From a virus: a stretch of DNA of 20,530 nucleotides. The notes below the pieces were generated by a model. It saw nothing but the letters and a program-made list of their open reading frames with translations. It searched no databases and had not been told where the DNA came from. The stretch is taken from the IMG/VR virus record IMGVR_UViG_3300045999_007580, positions 1-20,530 of that record, one strand, 5' to 3'. Position 1 is the stretch's first letter. Each line of letters begins with the position of its first letter. Shown one piece after another: positions 1-8,698 of this stretch. The position numbers and the translations under genes are program-made.

Positions 1-744
1 GGAAATTTCTTGTTTTTTTGGTGACAACATTTTCCAAAATAAAGCGTGGTTAAAGGCACCACCACCATTATTTTTAACTACGTTATTAAATTTTGAAATC
101 TTTTCTATTATTTCCTCAAGGTCTAAATCCTTACCTTTAATTTTTTCTAATTCAACATTGAGTTTTTCAACATAACCCTTGTAGTGTTTATTGTAGTGGG
201 TATTCATTGTCTCACCGTCAATAAATTTTTCTAAAGAGTTATAGTCATATGGAAGTCTATCAACACTAACCTTTTTTATTTCGGAAATTAATAATTCTTT
301 TTTTGAAGATTCGATTTCTAATAATGTTTCAATTTTTTCAATTTGCTCTGAAAAAGATTTATAGATAACTTTTTCCATATCCTTATTATTTTTTTCAAAC
401 TTTTTGATTTCTTGGGATGCTTGTGAACTTGCTTCATCCTCGTTTTTTCCACCAATATCTTTTCCTTTTTTTCTTTTCAAAACGGTTCGTTGGTATTCGT
501 GTGACCATTCGTGAGCCAATGTTCTTAACACATCACGATTCAATCTATCTTTTACTAAAATTTTAAGTTTGTTTTTATCGGTTCTTGAACCTGTAGTCAT
601 TTCGCCGGTTCTTTTATTTTGAAATACAATATCCAAATTATCCTTTAATGGGTAATTCTTTTTAAGTTGTGAAATAAAATCATTGATTAAAACTTTATCT
701 TCTTTACTTGGCTCAATTCCAATATATTCAACATTTACGTCCAT
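1..744 (-). CDS. HExxH metallopeptidase-like / Fe-Mn superoxide dismutase-like fusion protein (3' end beyond window)
   Basis: Reading leftward from ATG at 744 gives 248 open residues with no stop before base 1, so the C-terminus is missing. Residues 1-110 hold a small metallopeptidase-like domain: H78-E-W-S-H82 is a HExxH zinc motif, and E102/E104 in NEDEASSQA are candidate third ligands. Residues 110-160 are a Lys/Glu-rich helical linker. From LPYDYNSLEKF (164-174) the protein follows the N-terminal half of Fe/Mn superoxide dismutases: THYNKHYKGYV aligns H183, H187 and Y191 with H26, H30 and Y34 of human MnSOD, and NNGGGAFNHALFW aligns H233 with metal ligand H74. The remaining SOD ligands (Asp and His of the DxWEHAY region) would lie outside the window. 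Whether it dismutates superoxide, cleaves proteins, or uses these folds structurally cannot be told from sequence. It follows the SNF2 gene by 12 bases and is probably co-transcribed with it. Confidence 0.88.
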   Translation of the reverse strand, partial: MDVNVEYIGIEPSKEDKVLINDFISQLKKNYPLKDNLDIVFQNKRTGEMTTGSRTDKNKLKILVKDRLNRDVLRTLAHEWSHEYQRTVLKRKKGKDIGGKNEDEASSQASQEIKKFEKNNKDMEKVIYKSFSEQIEKIETLLEIESSKKELLISEIKKVSVDRLPYDYNSLEKFIDGETMNTHYNKHYKGYVEKLNVELEKIKGKDLDLEEIIEKISKFNNVVKNNGGGAFNHALFWKMLSPKKQEIS

Positions 745-748
745 GATA

Positions 749-756
749 TATAAATA
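749..756 (-). promoter_or_regulatory. TATTTATA motif 4 bases before the peptidase-SOD start
   Basis: On the minus strand TATTTATA lies between the stop of the SNF2 gene (757-759) and the ATG at 744. It is one of several copies found in the coding-strand sense before starts in this window. Chance occurrence is a real possibility in such AT-rich DNA. Confidence 0.25.
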
Positions 757-2520
757 TCATCGGTTTTTAGAAATCATATTTAACATTTCTTCAATTATTG
801 ATGCTTCGTCAAATGTATCATCTCCCATTACCGTTGATATGATTTTTTTCTTTCTATTTAAGATGTCGTAAATTGCACCTTCGATGCTATTTTCAAATAG
901 GGGGTAATATACTGATGTTGAATTTTTTTGACCAATACGGTGTGACCTGTCTTCCGCTTGTGAATGTTCCGCAGGTACAAAAGATAAATCATTCATGATT
1001 ACGGCTTCAGCCGAGGTTAAAGTAATACCAACACCCGCTGCTTTCAAGTTTCCGACAAATACTTTGATTTTATCATTTGTTTGAAACTCATCAACGGCAT
1101 TTTGTCTGTGGAACTTAGAACAACTACCATCCAAATAAACTGCAGACTTACCAAAGTGGTTATAGATTTGATTTAGTGTGTCGGTAAAGTTTGTAAATAT
1201 AATAACCTTCTTACCTTGTTCTATAATGTTTTCCGCTAACTCAATTGTGTTATTAATTTTTTCTTGTGCAATAACTTTCCTTACTTTCATCAATTTTGAA
1301 AACTGAATTGTAAGTGATGAAGACTCTTCAGGATTTTGGTCGTACCAATTGAAATACTCACCCATTAACTCTTCGTAATCTTTTGATTTGAGTCTCAAAT
1401 ATACAGGAGTGATAATTTTTTCAGGTAAATCTAAAACGTCTTCTTTTAACCTTCTTAAGATGTGTGTTGAGGTTCTTTCTCTTAATTCTTCTAGATTAGA
1501 TGCTCCCGTAACATTCCATACTTTTCTTTTTCCAACACTAAATTGGAATCCGTTACAATATCTTTTAGCATAAGCCATCCAATTCATTGCTACAGGACTA
1601 TCAACAAGGTTTAATAAATTATAATAATTCATAGGTCGCGATGTCATAGGTGTTCCTGATAACAACCAAACTCTATTTGATTTACTTGCAATGTCGTTGG
1701 CAATTTTTGTTCTTTGTGCTTGTGGATTAGAAATCATGTGAGCTTCATCCATAATAACTAAATCAAAATTAATCTTCATTATTTCTGATTTTTCCTTTTC
1801 TTTAGTGTCGTGGAAATTTTTTAAGATATCATAGTTCACAATAACAAAATCATGTTCATCTGAAAATTTCTTACCTTCTGCAATATATACGGTTCTATCT
1901 GAATAATTTGCAATCTCTCTTTGCCAATTTATCTTTAAAGATGCGGGACATACAATCAAAACTTTCTTAGCCCCCGTTTCTAAAGCGGCAATAATGGTAG
2001 ATGTTGTTTTACCAAGTCCCATATCGTCAGCCAATATAAACTTTTTGTTTCTTACAAGTTTTTCGATGGCTTCTTTTTGATGTTCCATAGGTGGTCTATG
2101 GGTGTATTTGTTGTAATCAATTGAAATGTTTTTAACTTCATTATCTTTTAGTAATGCCGATTTCGGCATCCAAAAATCATGTAAAGTTTCACCTGAAAAG
2201 ATTTTACCCCAAATATGATAAGCTTTATCTTTTTCTACTAACAACTTCTCAACATAAATTTCTGAAGGTTCCTTGGTGAACATCTTATCTTCCATCAGTT
2301 TTTTACCAAAATATGAATCTAATTTGACCCATTTTTTTGCAACTTTTGGTTGTATTATGTGATAATTATTGATGTAATCGGCTTGAGGTCTTGTAGGTAC
2401 AAAAGACTTACTATTTTGTTTTTTGTGTTTTAAATTAAGGATATAATTATTTGACCCTTCATAATCGTCTAAAATTAAAAGGGCTTTCGATTCGGGTGTT
2501 TTTGGCACAAAATCTTCCAT
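757..2520 (-). CDS. SNF2-family DNA helicase/translocase
   Basis: A 587-residue superfamily 2 ATPase. Residues 145-148 (EHQK) form a Q-like motif. Walker A is DDMGLGKT (165-172), Walker B is DEAH (258-261), and motif III is SGT (288-290). The second RecA domain carries IIFTNF (440-445), GVGITLT (496-502) and the arginine-finger motif QAEDRSHRIGQ (521-531). This layout is typical of SNF2/SMARCAL1-like remodellers that translocate on duplex DNA; in phages such enzymes are thought to act in replication-fork or recombination processing, like T4 UvsW. The N-terminal 135 residues are a separate domain containing WMPKS (117-121) that I do not assign. I chose ATG at 2520 (MEDFVPK) because the longer frame to 2688 would run through the divergent gene starting at 2576. 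There is no Shine-Dalgarno motif. It probably forms a unit with the downstream peptidase-SOD gene. Confidence 0.95.
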   Translation of the reverse strand: MEDFVPKTPESKALLILDDYEGSNNYILNLKHKKQNSKSFVPTRPQADYINNYHIIQPKVAKKWVKLDSYFGKKLMEDKMFTKEPSEIYVEKLLVEKDKAYHIWGKIFSGETLHDFWMPKSALLKDNEVKNISIDYNKYTHRPPMEHQKEAIEKLVRNKKFILADDMGLGKTTSTIIAALETGAKKVLIVCPASLKINWQREIANYSDRTVYIAEGKKFSDEHDFVIVNYDILKNFHDTKEKEKSEIMKINFDLVIMDEAHMISNPQAQRTKIANDIASKSNRVWLLSGTPMTSRPMNYYNLLNLVDSPVAMNWMAYAKRYCNGFQFSVGKRKVWNVTGASNLEELRERTSTHILRRLKEDVLDLPEKIITPVYLRLKSKDYEELMGEYFNWYDQNPEESSSLTIQFSKLMKVRKVIAQEKINNTIELAENIIEQGKKVIIFTNFTDTLNQIYNHFGKSAVYLDGSCSKFHRQNAVDEFQTNDKIKVFVGNLKAAGVGITLTSAEAVIMNDLSFVPAEHSQAEDRSHRIGQKNSTSVYYPLFENSIEGAIYDILNRKKKIISTVMGDDTFDEASIIEEMLNMISKNR

Positions 2521-2575: not shown

Positions 2576-3091
2576 ATGGCGGATAGTAGAGTTCCAATAA
2601 CAAGATTAAATAAGTTTTTTGCCGAAGAAGATTTCAATTTAGAAATTTCTATGGGCGATGAATGGCTTGGGGGTGATATGAATTTCACTCTTGTTTTATA
2701 TCGTGTTGATAGACAAAGAACTGTGAATGATGATGTTTATGGTGAAACTTTAGAAGATGGGATACAATTTTTACCACCTGTTGAATTTAAAGGGTATGTA
2801 CAGATTGAGGCTCCTTCTAATGTTGATTATGGTGCATCTAGATTAACTCAGTCCGAGCCGGGTAATTTAAAGGTTGGTGTTTACCAAAAACAATTAGAGG
2901 AGTTGGGTATCGATATAAACTATGGGGATTATATCGGATACTATGAAACGGAAACAAGAGTTAGATATTATAGTGTGGTTGATGACGGTCGTGTATTTTC
3001 AGATAATAAACACACGTATGGTGGTTATAAACCATTTTATCGTTCTATTAAAGCCGCACCTGTTACTGATAACGAATTTAGAGGAATATAA
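2576..3091 (+). CDS. Putative neck / head-to-tail connector protein
   Basis: This 171-residue acidic protein is probably a virion connector. It opens with MADSRVPITRLNKFF. Its middle, LVLYRVDRQRTVNDDVYGE followed by LPPVEFKGYV, and its C-terminal RYYSVVDDG and YKPFYRSIKAAP segments resemble the beta-rich neck proteins of T4-type phages (gp13/gp14 class), in which a short aromatic-rich strand is followed by a PFY segment. It is shorter than T4 gp14 (about 256 residues), so the exact equivalence is uncertain. The gene lies two bases upstream of the gp15-like gene, the order seen in T4 (13-14-15-18-19), and this synteny is the strongest support. No signal peptide or membrane segment is visible. 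The start follows AT-rich DNA with no ribosome-binding motif. Confidence 0.6.
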   Translation: MADSRVPITRLNKFFAEEDFNLEISMGDEWLGGDMNFTLVLYRVDRQRTVNDDVYGETLEDGIQFLPPVEFKGYVQIEAPSNVDYGASRLTQSEPGNLKVGVYQKQLEELGIDINYGDYIGYYETETRVRYYSVVDDGRVFSDNKHTYGGYKPFYRSIKAAPVTDNEFRGI

Positions 3092-3093
3092 TA

Positions 3094-4134
3094 ATGGCAT
3101 TACCAAGTAAATTAAAAAAACATTTACCATTAATACCTGAAAAGGTTGGTCGCGAAAGAAGACAAGAAATGTTGGATGATATAACCGACCAAGGAACTTT
3201 TTTACCAAAAGGTGTTTTACATGCCGACTTAGATTTAGGGATGTTAGATTTTGTAAAAGAACAACTAAAATTAGTGGTGACTGAAAAACCTGTACCTACT
3301 GTAGATAAAATTATAACGACTCAGAACTGGTCTCAATTCACAGAGACATGGAACTTCCAAGATTTAGATAAGAACATTTCACTACCATTTATAGCAACAG
3401 TAAGAACCCCTGAGGTTAAGTATGGAACATTTCAAGGAGGTGCAGCTAATATACCTAACAGAAGACAATTCTTTTATTATACCGTTCCAACTTGGGATGG
3501 TCAAAGAAAGGGTGCAGATGTTTATACAATACCTCAACCAATACCTGTTGACATTACATATAATGTAAAGTTATTCTGTAATAGAATGCGTGAACTTAAT
3601 GAGTTTAATAAAATTGTTATGCAAACGTTTACATCAAAACAGGCATACACCCAAATTAAAGGTCACTATATTCCAATTATTATGGAGGGGGTTGCGGATG
3701 AATCAGTAAAAGAAATAGAAAAAAGAAAATATTATATTGCAAACTATACTTTTATAATGAAAGGTCTTCTAATTGATGAGGCAGAATTCAAGGTATCACC
3801 TGCAGTTACTAGACAAGTTTCTTTATTTGAAACTGAAACAAGAAATACGTCAAGAAGAGTGAAATTAGAACCATCAAGACCCGATAACTTTGATTTGGAT
3901 TTATTATTTGTCGCAGGTAATAACCAATTATCTGAAGTTTTTAGATATACTGTTGACTTGAAAGTGACCGAATTAGAAAACGTGAGTTCTTATGATGTGT
4001 TCATAAATTCAAATTATGTAGGAACTGATTTAACCACCATTCAAATTAATGATGGAGATACATTTTTAATTACTGTAACAAAGGCAAACTTATTAGCTGA
4101 AAGTAAAATTAAAACAGTATCTTATTTAGTTTGA
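3094..4134 (+). CDS. gp15-like tail terminator / sheath stabiliser
   Basis: A 346-residue protein that I assign to the tail terminator family capping tube and sheath at the head-proximal end. Residues around 148-225 hold the family pattern: IPQPIPVDITYNVKLFCNRM, then EFNKIVMQTF, a short loop, YIPIIMEGV, and RKYYIANYTFIMKGLLID. This parallels T4 gp15, where PSPIKMIYELSIFTRY is followed by QIVEQILPYF and RRRIEWSLTFEVNGW. T4 gp15 is about 272 residues; here roughly 80 additional residues after position 265 form a Thr/Asn/Val-rich, probably beta-sandwich extension with no recognisable relative. It starts two bases after the upstream gene stop, and its stop codon (4132-4134) abuts the stop of the minus-strand ribbon-helix-helix gene at 4135. 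The family assignment rests on remembered pattern and gene order. Confidence 0.7.
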   Translation: MALPSKLKKHLPLIPEKVGRERRQEMLDDITDQGTFLPKGVLHADLDLGMLDFVKEQLKLVVTEKPVPTVDKIITTQNWSQFTETWNFQDLDKNISLPFIATVRTPEVKYGTFQGGAANIPNRRQFFYYTVPTWDGQRKGADVYTIPQPIPVDITYNVKLFCNRMRELNEFNKIVMQTFTSKQAYTQIKGHYIPIIMEGVADESVKEIEKRKYYIANYTFIMKGLLIDEAEFKVSPAVTRQVSLFETETRNTSRRVKLEPSRPDNFDLDLLFVAGNNQLSEVFRYTVDLKVTELENVSSYDVFINSNYVGTDLTTIQINDGDTFLITVTKANLLAESKIKTVSYLV

Positions 4135-4296
4135 TTATTCACCGTAGATATCTTTAGTTTCTTTACAATTTTCCATAATTAATTTTTCCAAAAACTTGTA
4201 AATTTTCAAACCGTTTTTATCGCAGTATTTTTTTAATTGATTGTGTATTTCGGCATCAATTTTTAGGTTTTTTATTTTCTTAACGGGTTTTTTCAT
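4135..4296 (-). CDS. Small ribbon-helix-helix DNA-binding protein
   Basis: Reading leftward from ATG at 4296 gives a 53-residue basic protein ending in TAA at 4135-4137. The N-terminal MKKPVKKIKNLKIDAEIHNQ supplies a basic arm and a beta strand (NLKID). A first helix (AEIHNQLKKYCDKNG) and a second (KIYKFLEKLIMENC) follow, the order of MetJ/Arc/CopG-type ribbon-helix-helix repressors, which dimerise and insert the strand pair into the major groove. Phages commonly encode such single-domain regulators. It lies head-to-tail against the gp15-like gene with no spacing and is oriented against the tail genes, so it is likely expressed under other control, possibly from the shared 4297-4419 region. 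It has no antitoxin-style C-terminal extension and no toxin neighbour. Its target is unknown. Confidence 0.8.
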   Translation of the reverse strand: MKKPVKKIKNLKIDAEIHNQLKKYCDKNGLKIYKFLEKLIMENCKETKDIYGE

Positions 4297-4419
4297 AGCA
4301 GGTAGAAAAAAGGCAGAATTTATTCTTACTCCCTAATAAATATTATAAGAATGTAAAGTTTTTTGTTATTTGACGATGTATTTATATATAAAAAATAAAT
4401 TTAAAATACTTTTATTAAC
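4297..4419. promoter_or_regulatory. Divergent promoter region between RHH gene and sheath gene
   Basis: This 123-base AT-rich gap separates the leftward repressor-like gene from the rightward sheath gene. TATTTATA occurs at 4379-4386 on the plus strand, 33 bases before the sheath ATG, followed by TATAAAAAATAAA. On the minus strand TATTTATT occurs at 4342-4335, 38 bases before the RHH ATG. No hairpin with a T-run is evident. An operator for the RHH protein here is plausible, but no clear inverted repeat identifies one. Confidence 0.4.
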
Positions 4420-7400
4420 ATGGCATCATCAAATAAGGTTTTTGTTTCTCCTGGTGTGTACACATCGGAAAGAGACTTAACGTTTGTGGCTCAAAGTGTG
4501 GGTGTAACCACTTTAGGTGTTGTAGGTGAAACACTACAAGGACCGGCTTTTGAACCAATCTTTATAACAAATTTTGACGAGTTCCAAACTTATTTTGGAG
4601 GAACAAGTCCTGAAAAATTTGTTAATACACAAATACCAAAATACGAATTGGCTTATATCTCTAAATCTTACCTATCACAATCAAACCAACTATTTGTAAC
4701 GAGAGTTTTAGGTTTATCAGGATATGATGCAGGTCCGTCATGGTCTATCGTAACTATTGGTAATGTTGACCCATCCACAATACAAGTAACAGGAACAACT
4801 GGTCCTGTTGCAGTAACATTCACAGGAACAACTGGTGGAACTGTAACATACACATCAGTCCCATCGTCAATTAACGTAAATGGAAATTTTTATAACTCTT
4901 ACACTGAGTTTAATGGAGCTACTTCTTCAATTGCTGAAGATTTAACAACTTATTTAACAAATCAAATGTATTTGTTTGCTACAAGTTCCTCAACATCAGG
5001 TAGTACTGCAATTTTGTGGGGTTCATCAAGTGCATCAACTTTGACAAGTACTACAGGTGTTACTTCATTGAATACTATTACAGGTTCTACCGAAATGTTC
5101 GGAGTTCCAAATGTAAACCAAGCTTCTAATAATTTTTCAGCATCAACTAATGACCCATGGTATTATGGATTATTTAATTACTACCAAGGCTCAAATGATG
5201 TAAATACGTATTTCGGACAAAGTATGGGCGCCGCACTTTCAGGTATTTCTACAACACCAACAACGGGTGTATATTCAGGGACTGTGGCATTCTTTACTAC
5301 ATCTTATTCAGGAGCACCATATTCAACTTATGATGATTTGGTTGTTGCAACATTAAGGTCAAGAGGTATTTCAACATATACTTCAACTAATGCAGGACCT
5401 TTCTATGAGGTTACGGGAACTACAGATGTTGCTATGATTTGTACAGGTGCATACTCGGCGGTAACTAAAAATCCATATTCAACATTCCAAATTTCGGGTG
5501 TTACTTATGATGGTGATAACTTTAGTTTTGAAACATCGATGTTAAGTACAAACAAAAACTATTTAAGAAATGTATTTGGAGCATCTAACTTTGGTAAAGC
5601 AAGAAATGAAGTTCCTTTATTTGTTGAAGAGACTTATTCTGCATTATTACAAACAGGTTATAGAGCAGGTCAAATTAGAGGTTTATATTGTGATTTAGTT
5701 GAATTACCAGGTGCAAGGTCAGGTAATGCTGATAGTATCGGTTTCTACTTAGAACAATACCAAACACCTGAGACACCTTTCTTAGTTTCTGAACTTCGCG
5801 GTAGTAAAGTTTTCAAATTATTTAAATTTGTTCTAATCTCTGATGGTAACTCTGCTAATACATACGTAAAATTATCTATTGGTAATATTTCATTTAATAA
5901 TGGAACATTCGATGTATTTGTAAGAGATTATTTTGACAATGACCAAAATGTTAGAGTATTAGAAAGTTTTACAAACTGTTCATTGGACCCAACTAATAAC
6001 AACTACGTAGCAAATAAAATTGGTACGTCAAACGGTGAATACCAAGTAAAATCTAAATATGTAATGTTAGAGATGAGTGATGAAGCTCCAATTGACGCAT
6101 TACCTTGTGGATTTGAGGGATACGTAATGAGGGAATATGCAAACGCAACACCACCATTTGTTCCTTACAAAACTAAATACTATTCAGCGGGTGAAACAAT
6201 TTACAACCCACCTTTTGGTTCGACAAGTGGTGGAGACAACCCTGTTATTTCAAGTGGGGAAAATCCAAGAAGAGCTTACTTAGGTATTTCTAATATTAGT
6301 GGTTTTGATTACGACTTCTTCCAATATAAAGGAAAACAATTACCAAACAGTTTGGCTACAGACACTACGGGACCAGCTTGGGGTTACTTAACTAAAGGGT
6401 TCCACATGGATAGTGGTGCAACAGTTGTGACTATCGCTAACTCATATGCAACTTCAGGTCAATCGGCATTTGAAGTGGGTGTTGGGTCATTTAATTCTGA
6501 ACCAGTTGATACCGATAATCCTTATTACAGATTAAACACACGTAAGTATACAGTAATGGCTTACGGAGGTTTTGATGGTTGGGACATTTATAGAGAATCA
6601 AGAACTAACACTGATACATTCGCATTAGGTCAAACAGGATTTAAATACGGAGCGGCAAGTTCAGTAACTTACCCTACAGCATCAGGATGGGGAGCATTCA
6701 AACAAATTTCAGGACCTAACCAAGAAACTTGGGCGAATACTGACTACTACGCTTACAAATGGGGACAATCAACATTTGCAAATCCTGAATCAACAAACAT
6801 CAACGTGTTTGCAACACCAGGTATTGACTATGTTAATAACTCAAACTTAGTGGAAGATTCAATTGATATGATTGAAACAGATAGAGCAGATTCAATCTAT
6901 ATTACTACAACTCCTGACTTCAATATGTTCTTACCATCTTACCAAGATATAACAGAAGGTTTGATTTACCCTCAAGAGGCGGTAGATAATTTAGAGAACA
7001 CAGGTATCGACTCTAACTATACCGCAACATATTACCCTTGGATTTTAACAAGAGATACTGTTAATAACACTCAAATCTATATTCCTGCAACTTCTGAGGT
7101 TGTAAGAAACTTAGCATTGACTGATAACATCGCATTCCCTTGGTTCGCTTCAGCGGGTTACACAAGAGGTTTAGTAAATGCTATTAGAGCAAGACGTAAG
7201 TTGACACAAGACGATAGAGATACATTATATAAAGGTAGAATCAATCCAATTGCAACTTTCTCTGATGTTGGTACGGTAATTTGGGGTAACAAAACTCTTC
7301 AAATCAGAGAATCTGCACTTGACAGAATCAATGTAAGAAGATTGTTACTACAAGCTCGTAAATTGATTTCAGCGGTAGCAGTAAGATTATTGTTCGAACA

Positions 7401-7632
7401 AAACGATAACAAAGTAAGACAAGACTTCTTGGATTCAGTTAACCCAATCTTAGACCAAATTAGAAGAGATAGAGGTTTGATTGATTTTAGAGTTCAAGTA
7501 TCTAACACACCTGAAGATTTAGATTCAAATACATTAACAGGTAAAATCTTCTTGAAACCAACAAGAGCGTTAGAATATATCGACATCGAGTTTGTCATCA
7601 CACCAACAGGCGCATCTTTCGACGATATCTAA
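4420..7632 (+). CDS. Tail sheath protein (gp18-type), enlarged
   Basis: A 1070-residue sheath subunit, the polymer that contracts to drive the tube into the host. The N-terminus SPGVYTSERDL and the segment VGVTTLGVVGETLQGPAFEP are the sheath signature; a YISKSYLSQSNQLFVTRVLG strand-helix follows (about residues 75-105). The C-terminal 145 residues hold the conserved core: TLYKGRINPIATF, VIWGNKTLQ, INVRRLLLQARKLISAVAVR and the final FLKPTRALEYIDIEFVI, which form the inner layer and inter-subunit strands. T4 gp18 has about 659 residues, so roughly 400 extra are present. Residues 110-330 are Ser/Thr/Gly-rich and beta-prone with short internal repeats, and would be surface-exposed insertions. The ATG is preceded by AT-rich leader without a Shine-Dalgarno motif. 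Its 3' end is followed by a G/C stem-loop at 7647-7668. Confidence 0.97.
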   Translation: MASSNKVFVSPGVYTSERDLTFVAQSVGVTTLGVVGETLQGPAFEPIFITNFDEFQTYFGGTSPEKFVNTQIPKYELAYISKSYLSQSNQLFVTRVLGLSGYDAGPSWSIVTIGNVDPSTIQVTGTTGPVAVTFTGTTGGTVTYTSVPSSINVNGNFYNSYTEFNGATSSIAEDLTTYLTNQMYLFATSSSTSGSTAILWGSSSASTLTSTTGVTSLNTITGSTEMFGVPNVNQASNNFSASTNDPWYYGLFNYYQGSNDVNTYFGQSMGAALSGISTTPTTGVYSGTVAFFTTSYSGAPYSTYDDLVVATLRSRGISTYTSTNAGPFYEVTGTTDVAMICTGAYSAVTKNPYSTFQISGVTYDGDNFSFETSMLSTNKNYLRNVFGASNFGKARNEVPLFVEETYSALLQTGYRAGQIRGLYCDLVELPGARSGNADSIGFYLEQYQTPETPFLVSELRGSKVFKLFKFVLISDGNSANTYVKLSIGNISFNNGTFDVFVRDYFDNDQNVRVLESFTNCSLDPTNNNYVANKIGTSNGEYQVKSKYVMLEMSDEAPIDALPCGFEGYVMREYANATPPFVPYKTKYYSAGETIYNPPFGSTSGGDNPVISSGENPRRAYLGISNISGFDYDFFQYKGKQLPNSLATDTTGPAWGYLTKGFHMDSGATVVTIANSYATSGQSAFEVGVGSFNSEPVDTDNPYYRLNTRKYTVMAYGGFDGWDIYRESRTNTDTFALGQTGFKYGAASSVTYPTASGWGAFKQISGPNQETWANTDYYAYKWGQSTFANPESTNINVFATPGIDYVNNSNLVEDSIDMIETDRADSIYITTTPDFNMFLPSYQDITEGLIYPQEAVDNLENTGIDSNYTATYYPWILTRDTVNNTQIYIPATSEVVRNLALTDNIAFPWFASAGYTRGLVNAIRARRKLTQDDRDTLYKGRINPIATFSDVGTVIWGNKTLQIRESALDRINVRRLLLQARKLISAVAVRLLFEQNDNKVRQDFLDSVNPILDQIRRDRGLIDFRVQVSNTPEDLDSNTLTGKIFLKPTRALEYIDIEFVITPTGASFDDI

Positions 7633-7691: not shown

Positions 7692-7829
7692 ATGAAAATA
7701 GAAAAAAAATTAATCAAAGAATCTTTAGGTTATAAAACTGAAGGTAAAAAAACGTTTTCAGAAAAAAAACAAAATATTGTAATTACTGAAGCACAATTAG
7801 AAAGACTTTTAGAAAAACTTAAAAAATAA
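7692..7829 (+). CDS. 45-residue lysine-rich peptide, possible packaged internal protein
   Basis: An ATG at 7692 opens a 45-residue frame ending MLK-free in LEKLKK with TAA at 7827-7829; the stop shares its last base with the ATG of the HAD gene (TAATG), so translation is probably coupled. The peptide is very basic. Its C-terminal half (NIVITEAQLERLLEKLKK) should form an amphipathic helix, and ITEAQLxxLL-type helices recur in environmental phage proteins of unknown role. Its first ten residues, MKIEKKLIKE, resemble the capsid-targeting peptide of T4 internal proteins (MKTYQEFIAE, from memory), which ends in the (L/I)xE site of the prohead protease. That resemblance is short and could be chance. 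Coding status is supported by the tight coupling and lack of any other gene in this gap. Confidence 0.65.
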   Translation: MKIEKKLIKESLGYKTEGKKTFSEKKQNIVITEAQLERLLEKLKK

Positions 7830-8698
7830 TGAATATCAATAAGTACGTAAGAGAATTTGTAAAAAACAAACTTAACGAAGGTTTTACGGAAGAAGGTAAT
7901 CCTGATACAAAGTATTATGCTTTTGATTGGGATGATAATATAATGTTTATGCCTACGTCAATCATTGTTTTAAGTGAAAACGACGATGAGGTTCCGATGT
8001 CTACAGAGGACTTTGCAGAACACAGACACCAAATCGGAAAAGAACCATTTAGTTATAAAGGTACGACTGTTGTTGATTTTGCACCAGACCCATTTAGAAA
8101 TTTTGGAGTTAAAGGTGATAAGAGATTCGTATTGGATGCAATGGTGGCATCTGTTGGTCCATCTTGGAATGATTTTGTTGAGTGTATCAATGGTGGGTCT
8201 ATATTTGCAATCATCACAGCAAGAGGTCACAACCCAAATACATTAAAAGAGGGTGTTTATAATCTTATAATGGCTAATAAGAATGGTCTTAATAGTAGAA
8301 CACTAGCAGAAAACCTTTATAAATATAGAAATATCGGTAATGAAGTGACAGGTGAAAAAAAGACAAAAGCTTTAACACCAAAAGAATTACGTGAGTATTT
8401 GGACCTTTGTAGATTTTATCCCGTGTCTTTCGGTGAGGGGTCCGCAACTAATCCTGAAGAGGGGAAAATCAAAGCAATGAGAGAGTTTATTTCTTATTGT
8501 AAAGATATGGCTCAAGAAATAGGTGAAAAAGCATTCTTCAAAAATGATGTAGAAAACAATGAAATACTACCTATTATTGGTTTTTCTGATGATGACCCTA
8601 GAAATATAGATAAGATGAAAGAATTTTTAGATGATGAAGATACTGAAAAACTAGTAAAAACTTATTTAACTAAAGGAGGAGAAAAAAAGGAAATCTAG
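7829..8698 (+). CDS. HAD-superfamily phosphatase-like protein
   Basis: A 289-residue protein with the haloacid dehalogenase motifs. Motif I is FDWDDN (nucleophile D33 and general acid D35), motif II is IITARG (T130), and motif IV is GFSDDDPRNID (D254-D256). Motif III is probably one of K213 or K215 in EEGKIKAM. This set predicts a Mg-dependent phosphotransferase; the T4 polynucleotide kinase phosphatase domain is the best-known phage example, but no P-loop kinase domain is present. Residues 140-245 are an inserted, largely helical cap-like region. The first 17 residues, MNINKYVREFVKNKLNE, form an amphipathic helix before the catalytic core and end in an LxE sequence such as T4 prohead proteases cleave. 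Its substrate is unknown. An enzyme inside a sheath-tube operon is unexpected unless it acts on, or rides in, the virion. Confidence 0.85.
   Translation: MNINKYVREFVKNKLNEGFTEEGNPDTKYYAFDWDDNIMFMPTSIIVLSENDDEVPMSTEDFAEHRHQIGKEPFSYKGTTVVDFAPDPFRNFGVKGDKRFVLDAMVASVGPSWNDFVECINGGSIFAIITARGHNPNTLKEGVYNLIMANKNGLNSRTLAENLYKYRNIGNEVTGEKKTKALTPKELREYLDLCRFYPVSFGEGSATNPEEGKIKAMREFISYCKDMAQEIGEKAFFKNDVENNEILPIIGFSDDDPRNIDKMKEFLDDEDTEKLVKTYLTKGGEKKEI

Follow-up and report, generated by a model that had tools for sequence, protein, structure and literature searches.

A zincin-like domain joined to a manganese-type superoxide dismutase in uncultured phages: candidate cargo of the phage head

The viral DNA analyzed here (called the window) is the entire IMG/VR record IMGVR_UViG_3300045999_007580, a stretch of 20,530 bases. 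An open reading frame on its minus strand, running from 744 to 1, encodes 248 amino acids and is still open at the end of the contig. A first-pass annotation made from the sequence alone described this frame as an HExxH metallopeptidase-like domain joined to an Fe/Mn superoxide dismutase (SOD), which raises the question of whether such a protein is real and what a phage might do with it. The C-terminal half of the SOD is not visible in the window because the record is only a fragment, and the nearest relatives of the protein are 362 amino acids long. Features of the locus are collected in Table 1.

Table 1. Features of the fusion gene and its surroundings in the window
Feature	Position	Strand	Basis or remark
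HExxH-SOD fusion gene, 5' 248 codons	1..744	-	3' end beyond contig
N-terminal zincin-like domain, residues 1-128	361..744	-	Model of nearest relative (L001) and zincin structures in VIA-align 2
HEWSH, residues 78-82	499..513	-	HEWxH in 120/120 distinct fusions
N101-E102; Glu is candidate third zinc ligand, 20 residues past second His	439..444	-	
Linker, residues 129-160, rich in [LIVM]xE	265..360	-	7.87 LxE per 100 amino acids
LISE (residues 152-155), 8 residues ahead of SOD LPY; candidate site for the prohead protease	280..291	-	
Mn/Fe-SOD, N-terminal half, residues 161-248	1..264	-	PF00081, 80 bits
TATTTAT element just upstream of fusion ATG	750..756	-	39/40 distinct upstream regions
SNF2-like helicase gene, next upstream	757..2520	-	PF00176, 113 bits
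Two genes (171 and 346 amino acids), head of divergent tail operon	2576..4134	+	No family match above threshold
Tail sheath gene	4420..7632	+	phrog_23, E 6.5e-55

The fusion protein and its relatives

The initial domain reading and its ligand assignment are supported. HEWSH and NEDEAS (residues 101-106) lie where they were placed, as do H183, H187, Y191, and H233. A frameshift or contig-join error between residues 110 and 160, which had been named as a possible flaw, is ruled out by the continuous frame of 120 distinct full-length fusions, and an assembly chimera was dropped for the same reason. The zincin-SOD fusion and its composition can be taken as nearly certain.

The first viral scan gave at least 592 relative-encoding stretches among the 600 matches listed, of which 80 were kept for reading and 76 carry a full-length protein. 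Three viral scans together supplied 238 loci, with some contigs present in more than one scan, and the query of the third included the SOD end, such that many of its matches are to SOD rather than to the C-terminal module B described below. These loci comprise 210 full fusions (120 distinct), 14 genes cut by a contig end, and 14 HExxH-only proteins of 129 amino acids. No full-length fusion lacks DxWEH, a string that is part of the rule selecting fusions for counting, and all 14 full loci in which it is absent encode HExxH-only proteins. Among the distinct fusions, 67 have at most 370 amino acids and 53 are longer. Fifteen of 19 larger records have one Sod_Fe_C match each, always in a fusion-sized open frame, and the largest fusion-bearing record of this set has 290,887 bases. 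The other four are HExxH-only jumbo records (G023-G026) with no Sod_Fe_C match. The carriers are uncultured phages, mostly from lakes, and form a large group.

The stand-alone 129-residue protein is found in large phages (L201, L202, L205, and L214-L223, around 4001-4390), where its gene adjoins an opposite-strand gene with an IxE-type N-terminus and an FKBP-like gene named by eye. One of these loci (L222) has an additional Hsp70-like ORF, likewise named by eye.

SOD identity was tested for residues 160-248, and the window ORF matches PF00081 (Sod_Fe_N) strongly over residues 161-241 (E 1.8e-22, cut-off 27 bits). The nearest relative, L001 (362 amino acids, 98% identical over residues 1-248), matches Sod_Fe_N with 79.6 bits and Sod_Fe_C (PF02777) with 143 bits (E 3.6e-42), and its C-terminal part carries NQDNP and DLWEHAYY. 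The C-terminal SOD ligands were sought in the relatives and found in every full-length one read. All 120 distinct fusions have the HYxKHY...Y block, GGxFNHALFW, and NQDxP. Invariant in 50 distinct proteins are H183, H233, D319, and H323, which we take to be the His, His, Asp, and His metal ligands, as well as G229 and Q300, presumably the Gly/Gln pair of Mn-type enzymes; roles of ligands and gateway residues are assumed here from general knowledge. The Mn SodA model (198.7 bits) outscores the Fe SodB model (165.4 bits), and both scores are under the strict equivalog cut-offs. Solved MnSODs match the phage domain throughout, the best being PDB entry 5n56 (residues 161-354, 200.6 bits), which we take to be the Staphylococcus aureus enzyme. 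The phage domain thus shares with bacterial MnSOD (SodA/SodM) a full-length match, the metal ligands, the gateway residues, and the Mn-type pair. It differs in sitting behind a zincin domain and in forming one clade on a long stem (0.74).

In six pairs, dN/dS is 0.03-0.06 for the SOD, 0.09-0.16 for the N-domain, and 0.05-0.41 for the linker, with some dS values near saturation. Both domains are under purifying selection, which is strong in the SOD. The SOD is complete, of the Mn type, and probably active.

In the N-domain, the Glu after the second His of HEWxH lies at +20 in 116 of the 120 distinct fusions and at +21 in four, and the Asn preceding it is replaced in 14. A model of residues 1-129 of L001, built from an alignment of 36 sequences, has a mean pLDDT of 94.6, whereas confidence is lower for the model of the full-length protein (mean pLDDT 78.5, pTM 0.51, linker below 50). 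The top VIA-align 2 matches to the N-domain model are M30 lugdulysin (Z 9.6, 111 aligned residues, rmsd 3.1), YbeY (9.5), M1 aminopeptidases (9.5), and Wss1 (8.9), where models without a clear match typically reach a best Z of 7-8. Foldseek returned no PDB match to this model at E ≤ 0.001, and in the viral model library BFVD IrrE-like and SprT-like proteins are among the matches. PF06114 (M78, IrrE/ImmA) matches neither the window protein nor L001, and it scores 19.5 bits, below its cut-off of 22, on cyanophage B23 gp332, a weak N-domain relative (39% over 59 residues).

Minimal zincins and gluzincins (M30 lugdulysin, the M1 catalytic domain, Wss1/SprT, YbeY, and IrrE/ImmA of M78) share the HExxH and downstream Glu with the phage domain. 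The likeness is at the level of the fold (Z 8.9-9.6), with no family reached above its curated cut-off, and the presence or absence of M78, M1, and M30 in the fold search rules out no other zincin family. The model suggests that the N-domain is a minimal zincin with HEWxH and a downstream Glu, and it is probably active.

Junction peptides, C-terminal modules, and leaders

The domains of the fusion are joined like beads on a string by short [IL]xE-type peptides, and this architecture is the new point of our analysis. The density of [LIVM]xE per 100 amino acids is 7.87 in the zincin-SOD linker and 5.44 in the first 35 residues past the SOD, compared with 1.1-1.4 elsewhere. LxE occurs 252 times in the zincin-SOD linker (167.6 ± 9.9 when shuffled) and 59 times in the post-SOD linker (28.1 ± 4.5), and the strict form [LIV][NKT]E[STN] occurs 34 times past the SOD (2.0 ± 1.4). 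None of 1000 shuffles reaches the observed count in any of the three cases, although the rows are related to one another and 0/1000 is not a probability. The junction motifs were defined only once the junctions had been seen.

An [IL]xE lies exactly 8 residues ahead of the SOD LPY in all 120 distinct fusions. However, conserved LxE columns are also held by control proteins (seven in the SNF2-like helicase, five in the operon partner, three each in the sheath and DNA polymerase, against two in the fusion), and the conserved pre-SOD site is therefore not special by itself. Past the SOD, [LIV][NKTS]E is found within 45 residues of NWxFV in 53 of 53 long forms, at 14-16 residues in 49. Only one of the 67 short fusions (L054) has an LxE-type motif there, and the window protein is a short form.

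String matching divides the C-termini of the 53 long forms into module B (25), A (9), C (8), D (4), D followed by A (4), and unassigned (3). The post-SOD motif is common to modules that lack mutual sequence similarity. By our own reading of the alignment, modules A and B have conserved E, D, and QxK/SxK columns, and they may resemble PD-(D/E)XK nucleases. No C-terminal module has a named family in Pfam, PHROGs, or solved structures, and one member each of modules A and C gave no tblastn match (E ≤ 1e-3) in annotated phage records. The best PDB match of module B is to a methyltransferase (E 0.0041), which we attribute to chance.

Similar peptides stand at the front of free-standing modules. Module A lacks the SOD in 7 of 66 loci (5 distinct), and in every case there is an N-terminal [IL]xE or NINE-type site, with starts such as MKYIFTESQLDILKNKILINE or stretches containing IITE, IILE, or IIVE. 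The 79 module C loci read give 56 distinct proteins, 35 with the SOD and 21 without. Among the latter, 14 consist of a short leader (for example MKLIISESQYRKLIES; the last Glu is absent in some leaders) plus the module, five place the module behind another domain, and two have a longer N-terminus. Four of the five chains with another domain carry a leader-like peptide at the internal junction. In 1384 distinct viral-locus ORFs, [LIVM][STN]Ex[QDE][LYFIV] occupies 59 of 9,688 positions at residues 3-9 versus 62 of 414,555 internal positions, a 40.7-fold excess for a pattern devised after leaders were seen and in a set that includes many loci retrieved because their modules bear leaders. LTESDL-type strings (1486 ORFs) are N-terminal in 17 cases and internal in five, and four different internal strings sit at the SOD-module B junction.

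Several other genes have related starts. Consecutive small genes in L414 (5012-6964), L415 (4059-6395), and L429 (2947-6702) each begin with a MKIIITESQYxxLLES-like start, and these runs appear to be arrays of different payloads behind one leader. A 995-residue chain in L424 (1078-4065) has an N-terminal domain common to L414, L415, and L455, then an HEIQH segment, which differs from the HExxH of the fusion, and then module C, with a leader-like peptide at two internal places. N-termini of the MKKIVRLTESDLxxIVKRVIxEQ type, which are candidate capsid-targeting leaders, occur in L145 (12701-13174 and 14362-14715) and L159 (6819-7316). The window itself encodes a 289-residue protein (7829-8698, plus strand) that starts with MNINKYVREFVKNKLNEGF, which includes an LNE site, followed by FDWDDN. 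It is perhaps HAD-like, and it matches no family in Pfam or PHROGs.

Gene neighborhood and origin

The SNF2-like helicase gene and an adaptor-like gene occur at 209 of 210 fusion loci and at none of 14 HExxH-only loci. The helicase start in Table 1 is taken from 587-residue relatives, the longest ORF being 757-2688. Where the locus reaches, the order in 20 mapped loci is helicase, fusion, adaptor-like gene, sometimes with a small ORF between the first two. In four of four cases tested, the operon partner, the adaptor-like protein, has a C-terminus that matches phrog_211 (head-tail adaptor), and the tail operon begins divergently from the fusion operon.

The TATTTAT element precedes the first tail gene in 33 of 34 cases, the sheath in 31 of 35, the adaptor-like gene in 35 of 36, and the DNA polymerase in 0 of 22. 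In a wider set, it lies upstream of 29 of 59 leader genes and also of 419 of 1192 (35%) other ORFs, which does not bear out its use as a late-gene mark and makes it a common phage element rather than proof of late expression. Upstream regions of the G001 and G002 phages contain TATTTATA in 19 of 166 and 15 of 101 cases (0.9 and 0.6 expected), in a strand-specific manner, and the string appears to be promoter-like or a leader element in both phages. AGGAG is present in just 2 and 1 of the same regions.

An S77 prohead protease (PF03420; phrog_207, E 1.3e-42) is encoded in 12 of 19 records. It was not found in the other seven, which are mostly fragments but include the 223,671-base G019, or in five further records beyond the 19. 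With both record sets pooled, it is present in 8 of 20 fusion-bearing and 4 of 4 HExxH-only records. The major head protein of G001 (phrog_138) has HLINEAAST near residue 60, which we take to resemble the T4 cleavage site in its place. The nearest tail sheath relatives are from a Microcystis phage and Flavobacterium phages (about 30-32%), and a Bacteroidota host is our guess.

In a phylogeny built from 30 phage SODs and 55 cellular ones, all phage rows fall on one side of a single branch (100/100), on the stem noted above. The phage SODs form one clade, consistent with a single old acquisition, and within it there are two clades, one of which holds the long forms among the sampled rows. In a single scan of cellular genomes (57 loci), only the SOD part was matched. 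One of these loci (L125) has an HE..H string in read-through ahead of the SOD's own start, and two (L114 and L130) were left out of the reading since their match begins beside a stop. A search of 395 genomes belonging to the same phylum as the Bacteroidota genome G017, run without a positive control, gave no N-domain match. A bacterial origin of the whole fusion was dropped on these two results.

Among 50,697 annotated phage records, no match spans 80% of the query, and cyanophages S-SRM01 and B23 carry weak stand-alone relatives of the N-domain. Nine phage-collection matches (H1-H9) are SODs in Enterococcus, Staphylococcus, Listeria, Salmonella, and Escherichia 'phage' records, several of them very short, and they look like host DNA. 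A named defense system was also discarded: of six proteins submitted to PADLOC, the HExxH-only protein alone drew a match, a weak one to HEC-06 (11.9 bits).

Relatives are already deposited, named just SOD or uncharacterized. UniProt A0A6J5L953, 'superoxide dismutase [uncultured Caudovirales phage]' (501 amino acids), is 60% identical over 208 columns, and A0A6J5L9U4 (127 amino acids) is a 34% match of N-domain size (both BFVD). In the accessible part of the open-licence PMC literature, we found no description of a phage protease-SOD fusion, nor of LTESDL/LTESEL leader strings, including in the available portions of PMC9875498, PMC5694885, PMC9026906, and PMC9405923.

Head cargo and competing explanations

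In T4, internal proteins are targeted by short N-terminal propeptides that gp21 cuts off, and a foreign protein given such a propeptide by fusion is likewise packaged and delivered (PMC9026906). As far as the available text goes, T4 IPI-III and Alt and the ejection proteins of SPN3US and phiKZ resemble the present system in their [IL]xE-type sites, S77 protease, and diverse leader-borne cargo. The fusion differs from the T4 internal proteins in that its sites separate enzyme domains within a single chain. It begins within the first zincin strand, and has no N-terminal propeptide comparable to the capsid-targeting sequences described for T4 in that text.

We consider the fusion to be a candidate for processed head cargo, a two-enzyme protein that would be cut by S77, packaged, and ejected. 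The features computed here are the fusion, its complete SOD with kept ligands, purifying selection, the junction motifs, the protease of related records, and the leaders on free modules; from them we infer cleavage, packaging, ejection, catalytic activity, and targets. The fusion would be expressed in the infected cell from the operon with the head-tail-adaptor-like gene, and a T4-type (S77) prohead protease might cut the [IL]xE junctions inside the prohead. A cut at the pre-SOD [IL]xE would leave an N-terminus roughly as long as that of a free SOD, and cleavage of long forms would also release the extra modules. The freed enzymes might then enter the next host along with the DNA, where the SOD would remove superoxide and the zincin and other modules would act on host or defense targets.

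The LxE junctions, C-terminal modules, and neighboring genes shift weight toward such a virion-borne enzyme without being proof. We give the head-cargo explanation roughly even odds, given that the fusion lacks an N-terminal leader, that the motif past the SOD is missing from 66 of the 67 short forms, that control proteins also hold conserved LxE columns, and that presence in the virion is predicted from genes.

A broader version, which we offer more tentatively, is a head-cargo polyprotein system in which portable leaders tag unrelated payloads, and fused genes keep the leader as an S77-cut junction. Its leaders might be the MKIIITESQYxxLLES-like and KIVRLTESDLxxIVxRVIxE-like peptides of a T4-like, partly jumbo, freshwater lineage. 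The zincin-SOD protein could then be the most widespread product, with protease, SOD, and nuclease-like modules perhaps injected with the DNA.

The strongest alternative, to which we give a substantial but lesser chance than head cargo, is an ordinary enzyme of defense against reactive oxygen species (ROS), in which the fusion, uncut, remains inside the infected cell and guards host and phage, and the linkers are only flexible joints. In keeping with this explanation, the SOD is complete, purifying selection on it is strong, and the short forms have no leader at all. Freshwater phages carry ROS-defense genes that include superoxide dismutases, and the same reading is in print for them (PMC6802176, seen in part). 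These phages resemble ours in having SODs in uncultured genomes, whereas the fusion, junction peptides, and packaging are not mentioned in the portion of that text examined. However, ROS defense leaves unexplained both the LxE-type peptide at the SOD-module junction of every long form and the leaders on free-standing modules. A cell-wide SOD would also need no fixed zincin partner, yet the 15 SOD-bearing records each have a single SOD frame, of fusion size.

It is improbable that the fusion is a self-processing precursor whose zincin domain itself cuts the linkers. The zincin is always ahead of the SOD in the fusions read and keeps HEWxH and the third Glu in all 120, but similar peptides occur in module A and module C proteins that have no zincin domain, and the zincin domain is also found alone in 14 loci. 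More improbable still is reuse of the SOD and zincin folds as noncatalytic neck or head parts, for although the gene shares an operon with a head-tail-adaptor-like gene opposite the tail operon, all SOD ligands, gateway residues, and the Gly/Gln pair are kept (for the ligands, an argument of the first-pass annotation that is upheld), dN/dS is lowest in the SOD, and some jumbo records (G023-G026) have the zincin and no SOD.

Even without packaging, the constant coupling of an MnSOD to a zincin, seen in at least 120 distinct proteins of phages, makes for an unusual enzyme, and this pairing was not found in the one cellular scan (57 loci). If the head-cargo explanation is true, phages deliver a ready-made SOD with their genome, and a role for ROS at the moment of infection becomes testable. 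A leader that can be read from sequence would, in that case, make it possible to catalogue many so far unrecognized cargo proteins of this abundant, uncultured lineage of phages using genome sequences by themselves.
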